Source: Salegentibacter lacus (GTDB lineage: Bacteria > Bacteroidota > Bacteroidia > Flavobacteriales > Flavobacteriaceae). Taken from it: a stretch of 64,000 nucleotides of DNA. Position numbers and translations under genes: made by a program. The DNA lies in assembly GCF_020164555.1 (NCBI RefSeq), contig NZ_JAIQZB010000006.1:1-64000 (forward strand), written 5' to 3'. A model generated the notes under the pieces. It did no database searches. It saw nothing but the letters and a program-made list of their open reading frames with translations, and was not told the DNA's origin. Of this stretch, positions 1,545 to 10,813 are shown piece by piece (the first letter of the stretch is position 1; every line of letters starts with the position of its first letter).

Positions 1545-1589
1545 AAAAGAGCCGACTGTCATATTAATGTTTTAAGTCGGCTTTTTTTA
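1545..1589. terminator. Bidirectional terminator at the 3' end of the his operon
   Basis: Arms AGCCGAC (1550-1556) and GTCGGCT (1576-1582) are flanked by an A-run on the left and a T-run on the right, so it can act on both strands. The hisIE stop codon lies within its right flank. Confidence 0.8.
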
Positions 1590-2204
1590 ATGCCTTTTTT
1601 CCAGAACTTCGGTAATATCTTTTAAAGAATATCCTTTAGCTCTTAGTAAAATGAGGTAATGAAAAAGTAAATCGGCGCTTTCATTTAGAAACAATTCCGC
1701 GTTATCATCTTTAGCTTCGATAACCGTTTCCACCGCCTCCTCGCCTACTTTCTGGGCGATTTTATTCATTCCGGCATCAAAAAGTGAAACGACATAAGAG
1801 TTTTTATCTTCCCGAAGTTCAGGCTCCACCTCACTCATTCTTTTTCGTTTCGCAATAATACCTTCCAGCTTTGAAAAAAAACCAAAATTCGGTTCATTCT
1901 CTTCAGCCCAGCAGGTATCGGTACCTTTGTGACAAGTTGGTCCTTCAGGATCTACCGAAATTAACAGCGTATCATTATCACAATCATTTTTAATGCTCAC
2001 CAAATGAAGAAAATTACCGCTTTCTTCGCCTTTGGTCCATAAGCGCTTCTTGGTCCGACTGAAAAATGTCACTTTTTTGGTTTCATTGGTTTTCAAAAAA
2101 GCCTCTTCATTCATATAACCCAACATCAGCACATTCTTAGTCGATGCATCCTGAATTATCGCGGGCACTAAACCGTCGTTATTTTTATTAAAATCTATAT
2201 TCAT
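1587..2204 (-). CDS. hisIE: Bifunctional phosphoribosyl-AMP cyclohydrolase / phosphoribosyl-ATP pyrophosphatase
   Basis: This 205-residue enzyme catalyses the second and third steps of histidine synthesis. The N-terminal HisI domain (about 1-110) shows the zinc and metal residues in DPEGPTCHKGTDTCW. The C-terminal HisE domain (about 115-205) has KVGEEAVETVIEAKD, with the acidic residues expected for MazG-like pyrophosphohydrolysis. The length is normal for the fusion. It is the last gene of the operon. A 218-base spacer with repeats separates it from hisF, so transcript levels of hisIE may differ from the rest. The ATG at 2204 is used. Confidence 0.97.
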   Translation of the reverse strand: MNIDFNKNNDGLVPAIIQDASTKNVLMLGYMNEEAFLKTNETKKVTFFSRTKKRLWTKGEESGNFLHLVSIKNDCDNDTLLISVDPEGPTCHKGTDTCWAEENEPNFGFFSKLEGIIAKRKRMSEVEPELREDKNSYVVSLFDAGMNKIAQKVGEEAVETVIEAKDDNAELFLNESADLLFHYLILLRAKGYSLKDITEVLEKRH

Positions 2205-2217
2205 AATTATTTTTTTA

Positions 2218-2303
2218 CTCGATAATCGAGATTAATTACTCCGAGGCTTGGCTCGAAAATTAAACAATGTTCCCAATAAATGCCTCGTGAGCTTGCTCTG
2301 AGG
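2218..2303. repeat. Spacer repeats: CTCGATAATCGAG palindrome and CCTCG/GAGG hairpin
   Basis: The 13-bp palindrome CTCGATAATCGAG (2218-2230) recurs exactly upstream of the his promoter at 9427-9439, with the same flanks (TTTTA before, ATTA/ATTAG after). It is followed by CCGAGGCTTGGCTCG (about 2241-2255) and GCCTCGTGAGCTTG...GAGG (about 2282-2302), which can pair with each other or fold on themselves. I infer a dispersed palindromic element inserted between hisF and hisIE. Confidence 0.55.
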
Positions 2304-2311
2304 TATTGCAT

Positions 2312-2340
2312 GTCATCCTGAATTTATTTCAGGATCTAAT
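2312..2340. repeat. Single-hairpin copy of the ATCCTGAA/TTCAGGAT repeat family
   Basis: Arms ATCCTGAA (2315-2322) and TTCAGGAT (2328-2335), with the flanking GTC and CTAA, match one half of the longer elements at 6938, 20061, 31428, 43534 and 59470. This copy has only one half and lies in the hisF-hisIE spacer. Confidence 0.75.
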
Positions 2341-2422
2341 ATTTTTGTTGAAATAGAATAGAGATGAAAGAGCAAAGAATAAAGATCTCTCTAAACTATT
2401 CTCTTTTTTCTTTTCTTGAATC

Positions 2423-3178
2423 TTAAAGTCTAACTTCCACCCCATTCCTGCGAAGCTCTTCCTTTAAATCTTTAATCTCGATTTCCTTAAAATGAAAAAC
2501 ACTGGCTGCAAGTGCGGCATCGGCCTTTCCTTCAATAAAGGTATCGCAAAAATGCTGCATATTCCCGGCACCGCCTGAAGCGATTATAGGAATATTCAAT
2601 TCTGAAGATAAAACCGCTAATGCTTCATTGGCAAAACCAGCTTTGGTGCCATCATTATTCATAGAAGTAAATAGAATTTCTCCGGCACCACGTTCTTCAA
2701 CTTCTTTAGCCCATTGAAATAAATTGATATCAGTAGGCACTTTTCCGCCAACCAAATGAACCATCCATTCGCCGTTTATCTGCTTGGCATCAATTGCGAC
2801 CGTAATACACTGACTGCCAAATTTAGCTGCAAGCTCATTGATCAAGCCAGGATTTTTTACTGCTGAAGAATTTATCGAAACCTTATCAGCCCCATTTTTC
2901 AGTAAAATATCCACGTCTTCCACCGAAGAAATACCGCCGCCAACAGTAAACGGAATATTTACTTTTTCAGCCACCCTTCTTACTAAATTAGCAAGGGTTT
3001 TTCGTTTTTCCTCCGTTGCTGAAATATCAAGGAAAACCAGTTCATCTGCACCAGACTTAGCATAGATCTTAGCCAGTTCTACAGGATCACCAGCATCTCG
3101 TAAATCTATAAAATTTACGCCCTTTACGGTTCTACCGTCTTTGATATCCAGGCAGGGTATAATTCGTTTTGTAAGCAT
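2423..3178 (-). CDS. hisF: Imidazole glycerol phosphate synthase, cyclase subunit
   Basis: This 251-residue (beta/alpha)8 barrel makes imidazole glycerol phosphate and AICAR from PRFAR with ammonia delivered by HisH. The start [15 protein letters not shown] carries the catalytic Asp11, and VAIDAKQ (about residue 130) carries the second catalytic Asp. Phosphate-binding loops GGGISS and ASGGAG are present. Length is typical. The gene follows hisA at a 38-base spacing, and its partner hisH is one gene further upstream. Confidence 0.98.
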
Positions 3179-3216
3179 TTTTTTAAGTTAGAAGTAAAAA
3201 GTTAGAAACATGAATA

Positions 3217-3957
3217 CTAACCTCTTTCAATTATAAATTTTTCCAGTTCTTTTAGCTCAATACGGCCTTCATAAATCGCTTTCCCAATTATAGTACCCTC
3301 GCAACCAAGTTCAGCCAGTTTTGGCAACTCGCTAAATTCTGAAATCCCTCCAGAGGCGATTAAACTCAACTCTTTATCATCTGAAGATGTTTCCTCTAAA
3401 ATTCGCTGATAAAGTTTAAACGACGGACCTTCCAGCATCCCGTCTTTAGAGATATCGGTGCAAATTACATATTTTACACCTTCCTGCTGATATTCCTGAA
3501 TAAAAGGAATTAATTCTTTGGTAGATTCTTCCTGCCAGCCGCTAACCGCGATCTTTTCGTTATTCGCATCAGCACCCAGAATTATTTTATCTGAACCAAA
3601 TTTCTGAATCCAGCTTTTAAAAGTTTCGGGGTCTTTCACCGCGATACTTCCACCAGTAATTTGATGAGCGCCGCATTCAAAAGCAATTTTTAGATCTTTA
3701 TCGGTTTTAAGTCCGCCTCCAAAATCAACTTTTAAGTTGGTCTTTGAAGCAATTTCTTCAAGGATCTTATGATTTACAATATGTTTCGACTTCGCGCCAT
3801 CCAAATCTACCAAATGCAAATACTGAATACCGTGCGCCTCAAAATTCTTAGCCACTTCCAGCGGATGCTCATTGTAAATTTTCTTGGTATTATAATCACC
3901 TTTGGAAAGTCTTACGCATTTACCTTCAATTATATCTATAGCGGGTATAATTCTCAT
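3217..3957 (-). CDS. hisA: ProFAR isomerase
   Basis: This 246-residue barrel isomerises ProFAR to PRFAR. The N-terminus [22 protein letters not shown] has the catalytic Asp8. [12 protein letters not shown] supplies the second catalytic Asp and a phosphate loop, and IASGGIS supplies another. It is homologous to HisF, as expected from the ancient duplication. It lies in the operon between hisH and hisF. Confidence 0.98.
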
Positions 3958-4052
3958 TTTTTAATTTTGAAAGTTAGGTTGTTTTTATTTTTGCCACGAA
4001 TACACGAATAAAATTTTCTTCAAGGCTTACTCTCCCTTGGGGGTTGGGGGGC

Positions 4053-4634
4053 TTATATTTTTAAAAAATTCTCAAGTATTTTTTCCCCTGCATCACTGCT
4101 CTTTTCAGGGTGAAACTGGACACCGTAAAAATTATCTTTCTGAATTGCCGAAGTATACTCCACTCCATACTTCGTTGAAGCAATGGTTTCCTCACATTCT
4201 TTTACGTAAAAACTATGCACCAAATACACGAATTCCTGCTCTGAAATCCCGTTAAATAATTCTGATTTTAAATCATAAATCCGGTTCCAGCCAATTTGCG
4301 GAACTTTTAATTTATTATCGAATTTCACCACGTTAGCATGAAAAATTCCAAGTCCTTCAGTATCGCCCTCCTCGCAATAGGTACACATCAATTGCATCCC
4401 CAGGCAAATTCCCAAAACCGGTTGTTTTAAAGTTGGAATAACTTTATCCAGGCCGGTTGATTTTAGCATCTTCATCGCACTACTCGCCTCTCCTACTCCG
4501 GGGAAAATCACTTTATCTGCCGACTTGATCTCTTCAGCATCGCTGCTTAAAATCGCCTCATAACCAAGACGTTTAATCGCGAACTTTATGCTTTGAATAT
4601 TTCCGGCACCGTAATCAATTATTACTATTTTCAA
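4053..4634 (-). CDS. hisH: Imidazole glycerol phosphate synthase, glutaminase subunit
   Basis: This 193-residue class I glutamine amidotransferase supplies ammonia to HisF. The nucleophile Cys is in GICLGMQLM, and the His-Glu pair is in QFHPEKSSDAG. The start codon is TTG (4634). It is chosen because it places the canonical N-terminus KIVIIDYGAGN directly after it and no ATG lies nearby in frame. The gene is separated from hisA by about 95 bases. That spacer has a G-rich tract, GGGGGTTGGGGGG, ending just beyond the stop codon. Confidence 0.96.
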   Translation of the reverse strand: MKIVIIDYGAGNIQSIKFAIKRLGYEAILSSDAEEIKSADKVIFPGVGEASSAMKMLKSTGLDKVIPTLKQPVLGICLGMQLMCTYCEEGDTEGLGIFHANVVKFDNKLKVPQIGWNRIYDLKSELFNGISEQEFVYLVHSFYVKECEETIASTKYGVEYTSAIQKDNFYGVQFHPEKSSDAGEKILENFLKI

Positions 4635-4681
4635 TTTCTTTGGTATTGGGATTCAAAAGAAAGATTCTTCTGAATTCTTAT

Positions 4682-5824
4682 TTATAACATTCCTTTCGTT
4701 GATGGCAAAATCATTTTTTCTGCATCGCGTTTTACCGCCATTTTAATAGCTTTCGCAAAAGCTTTAAAAATCGCTTCGATTTTATGATGCTCGTTCTGGC
4801 CTTCAGCTTTTACGTTTAGGTTTGCTTTAGCTCCATCGGTGAAGGACTTAAAGAAATGGTAGAACATTTCGGTAGGCATTTTCCCAACCATTTCGCGTTT
4901 AAATTCAGTTTCCCAAACAATCCAGTTTCTTCCACCAAAATCTATGGCCACCTGTGACAGGCAATCGTCCATTGGCAAACAAAAACCGTAGCGTTCTATT
5001 CCCAATTTGTTCCCTAATGCTTTACTAAACACTTCTCCCAGGGCGATTGCAGTATCTTCTATAGTATGATGCTCATCCACTTCCAAATCACCTTTAACAC
5101 TCACTGTAAGGTCCATTTGTCCATGACGCGCAATTTGATCCAGCATATGGTCAAAGAACGCAATTCCTGTGCTTATTTCTGACTTCCCGGTGCCGTCTAA
5201 ATTCAATTGGATAAAAATATCAGTCTCATTGGTTTTTCGACCTATTTCTGCAGTTCTATCGTTTAATTTCAAAAATTCATAAATCTTCTTCCAGCTACCC
5301 GTTTTTAGGGCAATGGTTTCTTTTACTTTTTCCTGATCGTTCTGCACTTCATCAGTCGCCAGATTTTCGTGAGTATCGATAAAAATACCTTTTCCTCCAA
5401 AATTATAAGCAAACTCAATGTCTGTAAGTCGGTCCCCGATCATAAAAGAATTCTTTAGATCGTACTCCTTTTCATTATTCAGGTACTTTTCCTCTAAAAG
5501 TCCGGTATTGGGTTTTCGAGTTCGGGAATTATCTTTGGCGAATGTGCGATCCATCAAAATCTCGCTAAATTCCACACCTTCATTTTTAAAGGTTTGGATG
5601 ATAAAATTTTGAATAGGCCAGAACTTTTCTTCCGGATAAGCTTCAGTCCCTAAGCCATCCTGATTAGTGACCATTACCAACTCAAAATCCAGTTCTGCTG
5701 CGATTTTTTTTAGGTAATACAAAGCTTCCGGATAAAATTCCAGTTTCTCGATACTGTCTACCTGATAATCTTCCGGCTCGTGAATTAAAGTCCCATCACG
5801 ATCTATAAATAATACTTTTCTCAT
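4682..5824 (-). CDS. hisB: Bifunctional histidinol-phosphatase / imidazoleglycerol-phosphate dehydratase
   Basis: This 380-residue fusion has two domains. Residues 1-165 are a HAD phosphatase ([12 protein letters not shown], with Asp8 and Asp10, later [10 protein letters not shown]). Residues about 190-380 are the dehydratase, with Mn-binding histidines in [21 protein letters not shown] and [16 protein letters not shown]. It carries out steps 6 and 8 of the pathway. The fusion is common in Bacteroidetes and Enterobacteria. It follows hisC after a short repeat-bearing spacer. Confidence 0.97.
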
Positions 5825-8313: not shown

Positions 8314-9177
8314 TTAAAGTACCATTTTTTCAATTGGTGCTACTAAAATTCCTTCGGCACCGTTTTCCTTTAATTCGTCTATTACTTCCCAGAAACGCTC
8401 TTCATTAATTACTGTATGGATGGAACTCCAACCATCTTCAGCAAGTGGTAAAACCGTTGGACTGCGCATTCCCGGAAGCAATTTAATAATATTATCCAGG
8501 TTTTCGTTTGGCGCGTTTAAGAGAATGTATTTTGAAGTTCGTGCGTTTAGAACAGATTTAATCCTGAACTGCAATTTCTCTAAAATCACTTTACGGTCGT
8601 CAGAGATCTTAGGAGAAATAGCGAGCACCGCTTCACTTTTCAGCATTACTTCTACTTCCTTCAACCCGTTTTTGAATAGGGTGCTTCCGCTGGAAACAAT
8701 ATCGCAAATACCATCGGCCAAGCCAATATTTGGAGCGATTTCAACGGAACCATTAATAATGTGCAGTTCGGCGCTTATGCCTTTCTTTTCAAGAAAATCA
8801 TTTACCGTATTCGGATAGGAAGTCGCAATTTTTTTACCATCCAGATCGTTAATTCCTGAATACTTCATTGATTTTGGAACAGCAAGAGAAACACGGCATT
8901 TTGAAAAGCCTAGTTTTTCCCCCTGGATAATATCATTCCCTTTTTCGATTAAAACGTTCTCTCCAATAATGGCAACATCCACAACTCCATCTCTTAAATA
9001 TTGTGGGATATCTCCATTTCGCAAATACATAACTTCCAGTGGAAAGTTACGGGAAGAAGCTTTAAGCTGCTCTTTTCCGTTGTCTATAGAAATTCCTGCG
9101 TCTTTTAATATTTTAAGCGAATCTTCGTTTAACCGACCCGATTTTTGAATAGCAATTCTTAATTTTTCCTGACTCAT
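8314..9177 (-). CDS. hisG: ATP phosphoribosyltransferase, long form
   Basis: This 287-residue enzyme catalyses the first, feedback-controlled step of histidine synthesis. The length and the C-terminal segment (about 215-287, ending ENGAEGILVAPIEKMV) show the long HisG with its own ACT-like regulatory domain. It should therefore not need HisZ, and no hisZ is present. The catalytic core has LRIAIQKSGRLNEDS and the PRPP loop IVSSGSTLFKNGL. It is the first structural gene behind the attenuator, so control is predicted at two levels: transcription attenuation and feedback on the enzyme. Confidence 0.97.
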   Translation of the reverse strand: MSQEKLRIAIQKSGRLNEDSLKILKDAGISIDNGKEQLKASSRNFPLEVMYLRNGDIPQYLRDGVVDVAIIGENVLIEKGNDIIQGEKLGFSKCRVSLAVPKSMKYSGINDLDGKKIATSYPNTVNDFLEKKGISAELHIINGSVEIAPNIGLADGICDIVSSGSTLFKNGLKEVEVMLKSEAVLAISPKISDDRKVILEKLQFRIKSVLNARTSKYILLNAPNENLDNIIKLLPGMRSPTVLPLAEDGWSSIHTVINEERFWEVIDELKENGAEGILVAPIEKMVL

Positions 9178-9194
9178 TTTTTAATTTTTCTATT

Positions 9195-9221
9195 AAACTT
9201 CAAAACTTTTAATTGAAGTTT
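9195..9221 (-). other. AAACTTCA/TGAAGTTT hairpin between attenuator and hisG
   Basis: Inverted arms of 8 bp lie just before the hisG start on the transcript, after the U-run of the attenuator. It may affect hisG translation or stabilise the 5' end of read-through mRNA. No direct support exists for either role. Confidence 0.4.
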
Positions 9222-9231
9222 GGTGGTTATC

Positions 9232-9269
9232 TAAAACAAAAAACCCGTTTGAATAGCTCAAACGGGTTT
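9232..9269 (-). terminator. his operon attenuator terminator
   Basis: On the minus strand, arms AAACCCGTTTGA and TCAAACGGGTTT (within 9241-9269) enclose a GCTAT loop and are followed by TTTTGTTTT. It lies between the leader peptide and hisG. The first arm plus loop (9256-9264, CGTTTGAGC) can instead pair with GCTCAGGCG (9307-9315) in the leader peptide tail. Confidence 0.9.
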
Positions 9270-9315
9270 TAAATATGCTGAAAATTACAACACACCAAAT
9301 TTACCTCGCCTGAGC
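9256..9315 (-). promoter_or_regulatory. his antiterminator pairing
   Basis: GCUCAGGCG (9315-9307) at the end of the leader peptide gene is complementary over nine consecutive positions, two of them G-U, to CGUUUGAGC (9264-9256) in the ascending arm of the terminator. A ribosome stalled on the four His codons leaves this segment free, giving read-through. A ribosome reaching the stop codon covers it, giving termination. This is an inference from base pairing. Confidence 0.75.
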
Positions 9316-9357
9316 GCAGTAGTAAATATGATGGTGATGTAATTGAGAGTTCTTCAT
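9301..9357 (-). CDS. hisL: his operon leader peptide
   Basis: An 18-codon reading frame, MKNSQLHHHHIYYCAQAR, begins at ATG 9357 and ends with TAA at 9301-9303. Four successive His codons (CAT CAC CAT CAT, residues 7-10) act as the histidine sensor. The last codons (Ala-Gln-Ala-Arg) overlap the antiterminator strand. Only about eight bases separate the putative -7 element from the ATG, so the transcript would have almost no 5' untranslated region. It was identified by reading the sequence because it is far too short for ordinary gene finding. Confidence 0.88.
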   Translation of the reverse strand: MKNSQLHHHHIYYCAQAR

Positions 9358-9365
9358 TGTGATTA

Positions 9366-9394
9366 CAAATCTAAATATAAATTTTAAACTGCAA
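9366..9394 (-). promoter_or_regulatory. his operon promoter (TTG-18-TAnnTTTG)
   Basis: On the minus strand a TTG (9394-9392) is followed after 18 bases by TAGATTTG (9373-9366). This matches the Bacteroidetes primary sigma consensus. The CTCGATAATCGAG palindrome lies 33 bases further upstream. Confidence 0.75.
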
Positions 9395-9426
9395 AACAGC
9401 TTTCTGGTTTTTTATGAATTGTTTTA

Positions 9427-9439
9427 CTCGATAATCGAG
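9427..9439. repeat. CTCGATAATCGAG palindrome upstream of the his promoter
   Basis: A perfect 13-base palindrome shares its flanking TTTTA and GATTA with the copy at 2218-2230. It could be an operator, a dispersed repeat or the end of one. Confidence 0.6.
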
Positions 9440-9514
9440 ATTAGATAGATTTTGACCTACTTACAAAGCATATTTTTATTAATAGAACTATACGTAGGCT
9501 AATAGGCTGATTAA

Positions 9515-10813
9515 TTAATCATCTATTGCGCTAAAAAGCATTTGCCTGAATTTCCAGGCGGTTTCATCCCCGGTATTACCCTGAGTTTGTTTCAACAGAA
9601 TACCAATTATTTGCTCTTCCGAGTCGGCAAAATACTGTGTATTGAAATAACCACCCCAATCAAAGGTGCCGGCACTACCCTGGCCTCCAGAAATCTCTCC
9701 CGTTTCACTAACTACTCCAAAAGCGAGCCCATGGTATTGATTGGGAAAATTGAATTTTTCACCGGTATGGTTTCCCATAATAATATTTACCGTTTTTCGG
9801 CTTAGTAAGCGCTCTCCATTATATTCACCACCATTTAGATACATTTGCAGAAATTTTGCATAATCTACTGCAGTTCCCGAAAGTCCCGCTCCGCCGGAGA
9901 AAAAAGTTCCTTCGCCCTTTATCGGGTAATCGGGATCATAAAAAGTGGTTTGCAAATCTTCCCAATTTTCATTCTTTTTATACTGAACAGCAACCAGGCG
10001 ATTTTTATTAGCCTCAGGTTGATAAAACCGGGTATCATCCATTTGCAGCGGGTCGAAAATTCTTTCATTTAAAAAATCGTCAAAATCCTGTCCTGAAATT
10101 ACTTCAACGAAATAACCAAGAACATCCAAACCTAAGCTATAGGTGAATTTTTCGCCGGGTTCGTGATGCAATGGTAAAACCGCTAATTTTTTAACACTTT
10201 CTTCAATAGTTACATCCTTGGTTGTAAACAGTTCGGTGATACCTGCCTTGGCATAAATCTTTTTAATACGTTCATCACCATCTATCATTCCATAGCCAAG
10301 ACCAGATGTATGCGTTAACAACTGCCTGATAGTGATTTCATTTTTGGTAGGAGCCGCATCATAGGTACTGTCCTGTTCCCGAAAAGTCGCTAAAATTTGG
10401 GGATCTTTAAATTCAGGAATATACTTTGAAATAGGATCGTCTAAACGAAATTTCCCTTCCTCCCAGAGCATCATCACGGCAGTTGCAGTAATCGCTTTTG
10501 TTTGAGAAGCCAACCTAAAAATTGCATCTTTTTCAAGCTCTTTACCTGACGCATTTGCATCTCCAAAGGCTTCGTGAAAAACAATTTTGCCGTCGCGAAC
10601 TATTAAAGCTACCGCTCCGGGAATTTGGTTTTCTTCGATTGCCGATTTCAGCATTACTTCAATCTTCTGTATCCTTTCTGAAGACATTCCAATTTCTTTG
10701 GGAGCAGCTGTTTCAAGTGTCCCCGAATTATTTACAGAACTGGTTTGTGCAGAAAGAGCAAGGCTTCCTATAAAAATAGAAAGCCTTGCAATATTTAAGA
10801 AAATAGATTTCAT
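9515..10813 (-). CDS. Exported beta-lactamase family serine hydrolase
   Basis: This 432-residue protein begins with a signal peptide ending near SLALSAQTSS. The class C/EstB-like fold is shown by the nucleophile motif Ser103-Gln-Thr-Lys106 in FRLASQTKAITA, by HTSGLGYG and by the Tyr motif in EKFTYSLGLDVLGY. The third motif is not a clear KTG. GGQGSAGTFDWGGYFNT fills that place, as in many esterases and D-aminopeptidases of this group. It is predicted to act in the periplasm or outside the cell on an ester, amide or peptide. The substrate is unknown. It is next to, and possibly cotranscribed with, the prohibitin gene (10-base gap). Confidence 0.9.
   Translation of the reverse strand: MKSIFLNIARLSIFIGSLALSAQTSSVNNSGTLETAAPKEIGMSSERIQKIEVMLKSAIEENQIPGAVALIVRDGKIVFHEAFGDANASGKELEKDAIFRLASQTKAITATAVMMLWEEGKFRLDDPISKYIPEFKDPQILATFREQDSTYDAAPTKNEITIRQLLTHTSGLGYGMIDGDERIKKIYAKAGITELFTTKDVTIEESVKKLAVLPLHHEPGEKFTYSLGLDVLGYFVEVISGQDFDDFLNERIFDPLQMDDTRFYQPEANKNRLVAVQYKKNENWEDLQTTFYDPDYPIKGEGTFFSGGAGLSGTAVDYAKFLQMYLNGGEYNGERLLSRKTVNIIMGNHTGEKFNFPNQYHGLAFGVVSETGEISGGQGSAGTFDWGGYFNTQYFADSEEQIIGILLKQTQGNTGDETAWKFRQMLFSAIDD

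Follow-up and report, generated by a model that had tools for sequence, protein, structure and literature searches.

Known his attenuators and the leader of the window

The enterobacterial his attenuator follows an A to F strand order, in which B:C and D:E are the antitermination pairs; the antiterminator strand comes after the A:B hairpin instead of being enclosed by it. The element described here is located upstream of hisG, on the minus strand of the window (the whole stretch of 64,000 nucleotides that was analysed), in its his operon. It shares with the enterobacterial attenuator (RF00514) a His-codon run in a short ORF, alternative hairpins, an intrinsic terminator, and hisG directly downstream. 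On the other hand, the order of its parts is different: the His codons are followed by an antiterminator strand in the ORF, a post-stop strand, a helper strand and the terminator arms. A preliminary description of this DNA had taken the layout to follow enterobacterial his attenuation; this has to be corrected, because the antiterminator strand lies inside the leader ORF and inside the predicted leader hairpin. The His_leader model RF00514 gave no match at its gathering score in the whole window and is not among the 16 matches with E values up to 5 in 9150-9450. Thr_leader and the other weak Rfam matches in that region were rejected as chance, the top match scoring 25.3 bits against a gathering score of 55. 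An independent origin or a deep turnover of the element is suggested.

The Bacteroid-trp RNA (RF01692, Weinberg 2010) is, in the available part of its description, a candidate structured RNA of Bacteroidetes named for trp. The window does not match it: neither Bacteroid-trp nor Flavo-1 (RF01705) gave a match at gathering scores in the window or appears among the 16 matches in 9150-9450, and the T-box (RF00230) gave none at gathering scores in the window. The available text of PMC9723704 reports structured 5' elements in F. psychrophilum, those of hisG and pheA being among the ones present in other Flavobacteriaceae, without Rfam hits; for amino-acid operons, it states that there are strong clues to attenuation by leader peptides. 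A hisG 5' element is thus already in print and not unprecedented; it belongs to the same gene and family and is probably the same element as that of the window. The strands, peptide, mechanism, topology, ruler and family-wide tests for hisG do not occur in the available text of that paper. The trp attenuator of Sinorhizobium meliloti (PMC7298713, available part) has a leaderless trpL mRNA that starts at the AUG, and the start predicted in the window is similar, about 4 nt before it; that system is a Trp attenuator of Alphaproteobacteria and the window's a His one. In Firmicutes, His leader peptides precede hisZ/hisS paralogues according to the available part of PMC2965389, and they are, like that of the window, His-codon leaders outside Proteobacteria, but with other genes and in another phylum; neither "Bacteroidetes" nor "Flavobacteri" occurs in the main text of that paper. 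In the available text of PMC8305728, on his genes in the Bacteroidota superphylum, attenuation is mentioned once, for S. enterica and E. coli.

The leader ORF and its promoter

The genes hisG, hisD and hisC lie downstream of the leader, their identity being confirmed by NCBIfam, and the ORFs at 1587-5824 look like the remainder of the his operon. By HisG, the closest named relatives are Salegentibacter, with a best identity of 96%. Read along the transcript, the window has TTTG and TAGATTTG as its promoter pair; the leader ORF begins after a further 8 nt and is followed by a spacer, a terminator with a T tract, and hisG. The 18-codon leader with four His codons, the terminator, the promoter just upstream and hisG, all claimed in the preliminary description, are present, on the minus strand. 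The neighbouring gene upstream (9515-10813) is on the same strand as the leader.

8314..9177, minus strand: hisG, first structural gene of the his operon (TIGR00070, 185.2 bits)
9301..9357, minus strand: leader ORF MKNSQLHHHHIYYCAQAR, 18 codons plus stop
9328..9339, minus strand: four regulatory His codons CAT CAC CAT CAT, read from the sequence
9366..9373, minus strand: putative sigma-A -7 box TAGATTTG, separated from the leader ATG by 8 nt
9392..9395, minus strand: putative -33 element TTTG, 18 nt upstream of the -7 box, read from the sequence

From 9357 to 9301, the leader ORF reads ATG AAG AAC TCT CAA TTA CAT CAC CAT CAT ATT TAC TAC TGC GCT CAG GCG AGG TAA. The promoter ahead of it is of the Bacteroidota type as judged by its sequence, with TTTG, which we take to be the -33 consensus. 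A sigma-70 scan with an E. coli-type consensus found no promoter at the window leader; the Bacteroidota-type box is present instead. Of the 80 leaders detected in the close set (the window, at 9366-9373, and L002-L081), 79 are preceded by a box of the form TAnnTT[TC][GA] with 6-9 nt between it and the ATG, and 51 of the 80 have the strict form TAnnTTTG. Since the sigma-A box is at -12 to -5 in F. psychrophilum (PMC9723704, available text), a 5' UTR of approximately 2-5 nt, and thus a nearly leaderless leader mRNA, is predicted; for the window, the predicted start is near 9361 and the 5' UTR about 4 nt. Among the 96 leaders of the wider family, the box is 6-9 nt before the ATG in just 30, only at 14-20 nt in 15 and at neither distance in 51, which implies that the near-leaderless start is a trait of the window's relatives and not of the whole family. 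According to the available text of PMC9723704, leaderless mRNAs are rare (5.5%), and Bacteroidota, as a group, initiate translation without reliance on Shine-Dalgarno sequences.

Conservation of a His-rich leader before hisG

To be counted as a leader, an ORF had to be 7-45 codons long, lie within 480 nt upstream of hisG and encode 3 or more His in a stretch of 7 residues. Besides the close relatives, the sample included 100 of the 122 other family genomes with hisG, and, beyond the family, 60 regions of its order, class and phylum. Of the 81 close relatives, counting the window, 80 have a His-rich ORF ahead of hisG (shuffle mean 1.5, maximum 3; opposite strand 4), as do 96 of 100 family genomes (shuffle mean 2.6; opposite strand 2), all 18 order and class genomes (shuffle mean 1.0; opposite strand 0) and 20 of 42 phylum genomes (shuffle mean 1.9; opposite strand 2); the other 22 phylum regions contain none under this rule. 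In another pass, 79 of 80 named loci had a His-rich leader, the exception (L077) having a leader with Tyr-His-His.

Terminator, leader hairpin and helper hairpin

The RNA elements between the His codons and hisG are as follows.

9304..9315, minus strand: antiterminator strand GCTCAGGCGAGG, formed by codons 15-18 (A Q A R) and separated from the last His codon by 12 nt; base N1 is at 9315
9283..9344, minus strand: leader hairpin, -20.2 kcal/mol, z -4.2; predicted fold, with covariation in 28 aligned relatives
9272..9296, minus strand: helper hairpin in the spacer, predicted to form when the leader hairpin is open
9256..9266, minus strand: terminator 5' arm CCCGTTTGAG plus loop base C, which can pair with the antiterminator strand instead; N2, the loop base that covaries, is at 9256
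9233..9270, minus strand: intrinsic terminator AAAACCCGTTTGAG-CTA-TTCAAACGGGTTTT with T tract; stem 9270..9240, then the T tract

The complete leader is predicted to fold into a hairpin of -20.2 kcal/mol and the terminator of -15.0 kcal/mol (z -5.8), which is the sole terminator-like site in a scan of 9150-9550 (shuffles have a mean of 0.1). One side of the predicted leader hairpin is the His-codon region, and the other is the sequence that spans the stop codon and continues past it; the antiterminator strand is enclosed between them. Once freed, the segment 9320..9250 is predicted to fold as an antiterminator around the helper hairpin (-25.1 kcal/mol, z -4.6). The terminator, the leader hairpin and this freed segment each fold better than all 200 shuffles, as isolated segments with kinetics not taken into account. 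The leader hairpin, the helper hairpin, the near-leaderless start and the 12-nt spacing treated below were absent from the preliminary description and are added here.

Support for the leader hairpin comes from alignment A2, whose 28 rows were picked by hand for one register, with L074 and L168 being the same element and the structure taken from one member. In it, 92.2% of the cells pair, and sliding the partners lowers this to 35-58%. Six pairs are changed on both sides, which was reached by 11 of 500 shuffles, and there are 15 double-change cells compared to 5.6 in shuffles (0/500); the number of pair types in A2 is not above shuffles (147/500). RNAalifold on 74 close relatives predicts the terminator only (alignment A1, from which 3 of 81 were dropped in building and 4 were identical). 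Our explanation is that register shifts of the leader hairpin are the reason.

Pairing of the leader tail with the terminator arm

The nine-position pairing claimed between the last leader codons and the first terminator arm exists: GCUCAGGCG:CGUUUGAGC contains nine pairs, two of them G-U, and three further pairs (two G-C and one U-A) beyond a bulged A extend it to a 12-bp helix. The duplex is predicted at -18.8 kcal/mol; tails shuffled by dinucleotides average -9.7 (p 0.002), and the same tail gives -7.0 when it is combined with terminator arms from other families. The helix around the helper hairpin is likewise predicted for 94 of the 96 family elements, one of which is the window, and for 79 of 80 further relatives, figures that are not independent because the folded elements had been chosen for having a matching core and arm. 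For each core pair (8 in total), 81-95 of 95 family elements retain the pairing, and core and arm were found in 95 of 100 further family genomes. Five of 181 rows without core or arm (L190, L226, L279, L273 and L240) were dropped, leaving 176 elements; four of these are present in both the named and the other set, so that 172 are distinct, and none of the 96 on the tree are identical. This set replaced an earlier pairing count in which 12 of 121 rows were dropped.

The outermost pair of the tail-arm helix, between N1 (the base before the core) and N2 (the base after the arm CCCGTTTGAG), is a standard pair in 60 of 95 family elements, compared to 40.0 in shuffles: A-U in 24, G-C in 16, U-A in 13, G-U in 5, and U-G and C-G in 1 each. 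With the window included, 61 of 96 are paired, and the means are 40.5 and 40.3 when either base alone is simulated along the HisG tree (p 0.011 and 0/1000). When N1 was instead matched, as a shifted control, to the two loop bases that follow N2, the same simulation yielded p 0.31-0.86. In the window N2 is in the terminator loop, and inspection of the relatives' sequences indicates that this is general; the terminator therefore does not explain the N1-N2 pairing. The antiterminator covariation is visible only across the wider family, not within the window's close relatives, where both tail and arm are almost invariant. Among the latter, N1-N2 pairing is not above chance (53/74, p 0.06; 52/81, p 0.39 in the updated set), and antiterminator covariation is not significant in A2. 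The outcome that the preliminary description had named as refuting, related genomes lacking a His-rich leader or covariation, is thus not seen at the level of the family. An independent-pairs test on supported branches only had just 2-3 supported pairs. A second candidate, core5-arm5, in which all 8 arms with C have G in the core, was set aside since it is not significant on the tree (p 0.31, 0.59).

Tails of the GCTCTTGCG type, mostly from Salinimicrobium, have two mismatches in the tail:arm helix. Salinimicrobium tails GCTCTTGCGAGG (L038-L040, L043, L044, L048 and L053) also show two arm mismatches, and a local UUCGC/GCGAG hairpin is possible in their predicted folds.

Tails and arms outside the family

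Of the 60 regions from the order, class and phylum, 38 have a leader within 480 nt, and 22 of those have a terminator of -9 kcal/mol or lower; the other 16 were excluded from the duplex test, 15 for having no terminator and 1 for a weak one. Tails and arms outside the family are unlike those of the window, for example GGGUAAGC with GCUUACCC, or GCGUCGG with CCGACGC. For these 22 elements and the window, the tail's duplex with its own arm has a mean of -11.2 kcal/mol, compared to -7.3 with arms of other families (Wilcoxon p 2.6e-5, members of one family not being independent); with shuffled tails the mean is -6.8, and when the sequence preceding the leader takes the place of the tail, it is -4.4. 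Seventeen of the 23 tails beat their shuffles at p<0.05 and 6 do not, and one (L119) pairs worse with its own arm than with swapped arms. By family, the median shuffle p is 0.002-0.046 in six of eight (f1, f2, f4, f5, f8 and f14), and 0.17 and 0.32 in f22 and f27, with one element each.

No intrinsic terminator was detected in 15 of the 38 leader-bearing regions outside the family (L089, L096, L097, L099, L100, L105, L116, L117, L122, L123, L126, L130, L133, L136 and L141). With these and the one weak case, the mechanism outside the family may differ, and control at such leaders may be Rho-dependent or of another kind. Some of these terminator-less His-rich ORFs have their His codons spread over leaders of 23-34 codons. 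The same 15 regions, which indicate that leaders may exist without an intrinsic terminator, speak for a different reading of the window, in which leader translation acts through translational coupling, Rho-dependent termination or RNA stability and the hairpins are secondary. However, the window has a strong terminator, at z -5.8, with a loop base that shows covariation with the tail at family level, and we consider this reading improbable.

RNA versus peptide, and the 12-nt spacing

It could also be proposed that the AQAR tail acts as a nascent peptide, either an arrest sequence or a small protein, and that the RNA pairing is a by-product, since AQAR or QA[RSKN] is common as the peptide end in the family. 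The frames of the tail argue against this. Among the 176 family elements, the core is in the AQAR frame in 164, in another frame in 7 and interrupted by a stop codon in 5, and the RNA is kept; among the 172 distinct elements, the numbers are 160, 7 and 5, with one of the 7 out-of-frame elements (L204) being without a proper His run. The tail RNA is thus kept in 12 of 172 despite a frame change or stop, and the end of the peptide looks dispensable where the RNA is not. In addition, leaders outside the family have different peptide ends, but most of their tails still complement the terminator of the same element. A peptide function of the tail is accordingly even less probable than a role of translation with secondary hairpins. 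The result supports the earlier proposal that RNA pairing, and not the function of the peptide, would determine the amino acids after the His run.

The antiterminator strand follows the final codon of the His run at a distance of exactly 12 nt in 81 of the 96 and 76 of the 80 elements, or in 154 of the 172 distinct ones, although the run varies from 2 to 6 codons. The ribosome covers about 12 nt downstream of the translated codon (PMC4833913, available part). In 22 elements from outside the family, the median distance to the start of the paired strand is 17 nt, with a range of 0-21; the exact 12 nt is therefore a family trait, and common descent adds to its constancy. Finally, a reading in which the terminator serves only the upstream gene, as the end of its transcript, and the His-rich ORF is a coincidence has almost no weight left, because, although that gene (9515-10813) is co-directional and 9150-9550 holds no second terminator-like site, the ORF is almost universal before hisG in the family, the promoter box sits between that gene and the terminator, and tail, spacing and arm are conserved together.

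Other leaders in the same genome

Two further leaders were observed in the genome of the window. A trp leader MKNRIANTWWWKDLRQTS with a terminator precedes an anthranilate synthase gene (L290, contig C96 near 143614); its last codons and stop, GTCGTGA, are complementary by eye to TCACGAC in the terminator loop and 3' arm, a register different from that of the his element, and pairing of its tail with the terminator 5' arm is not significant (p 0.72). A Phe/Tyr-rich leader MNHLISWNAFYFFYFYFRDRNGNAM with a terminator precedes a prephenate dehydratase gene (L293, contig C1 near 34487), and its tail is not significantly paired with the terminator 5' arm (p 0.115); a pheA 5' element is also named in the available text of PMC9723704. 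A tail shared among leaders of this genome was rejected: the pattern GGCGAGGT-N{30,60}-CCCG gave six rows, two of which are one tRNA-like place, and of the six only the his site is, in our reading, an attenuator.

Proposed mechanism of attenuation and its implications

Based on the results presented above, the element of the window very probably acts on the his operon as a ribosome-mediated transcription attenuator, and its layout is nested. We infer its start site, translation, stalling, termination and histidine response from the sequence parts, their conservation, predicted pairing and covariation. RNA polymerase would begin some 4 nt ahead of the leader AUG, with a ribosome following behind it. 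When His-tRNA is sufficient, the ribosome would reach the stop directly after the tail (codons 15-18) and cover the tail; consequently, the terminator would form and the operon would be off. If the ribosome has left or never loaded, the His-codon strand would pair with the post-stop strand and the tail would be held in the apical part of the hairpin, so that the terminator is again allowed. When His-tRNA is scarce, the ribosome would halt in the His run and cover about 12 nt ahead, ending just before the tail. With the 3' arm still to be synthesized, the freed tail would then pair with the terminator 5' arm around the helper hairpin, and transcription would continue into hisG-hisD-hisC and the remainder of the operon. 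Because the antiterminator strand is inside the ORF, between the His codons and their pairing strand, the predicted ON structure is the tail:terminator-arm helix around the helper hairpin.

Compared to the attenuator class as a whole, a short ORF with a run of the operon's own amino-acid codons is present, and an intrinsic terminator is seen in the sequence between this ORF and the first structural gene; for an antiterminator freed by stalling and excluding the terminator, the evidence consists of sequence, predicted fold and covariation. The central claim of the preliminary description, a his attenuator whose leader tail doubles as antiterminator, gains support from the pairing, the covariation across the family, the tails that are out of frame or contain a stop, the complementarity of tail and arm despite different sequences outside the family, and the 12-nt spacing. 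A conserved his attenuator, of a known functional kind and with a new layout, is thus well supported by comparison of sequences. Whether Bacteroidota have an attenuator class of their own is, in our estimate, an even call. In such a class, the antiterminator would lie in the last ORF codons of a nearly leaderless mRNA, one ribosome front (12 nt in the window's family) past the regulatory codons, and would pair around a helper hairpin, its sequence being wholly replaced between families while the complementarity of tail and arm is kept.

On this reading, Bacteroidota gain a well-supported case of amino-acid attenuation, with a specific and testable layout read from sequence, in which the C-terminus of a peptide would be fixed by RNA pairing instead of peptide function. 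The his leader element is a possible proposal for an Rfam family, and the fixed 12-nt gap between codon and antiterminator may serve as a natural ruler for ribosome position in transcription-translation coupling.
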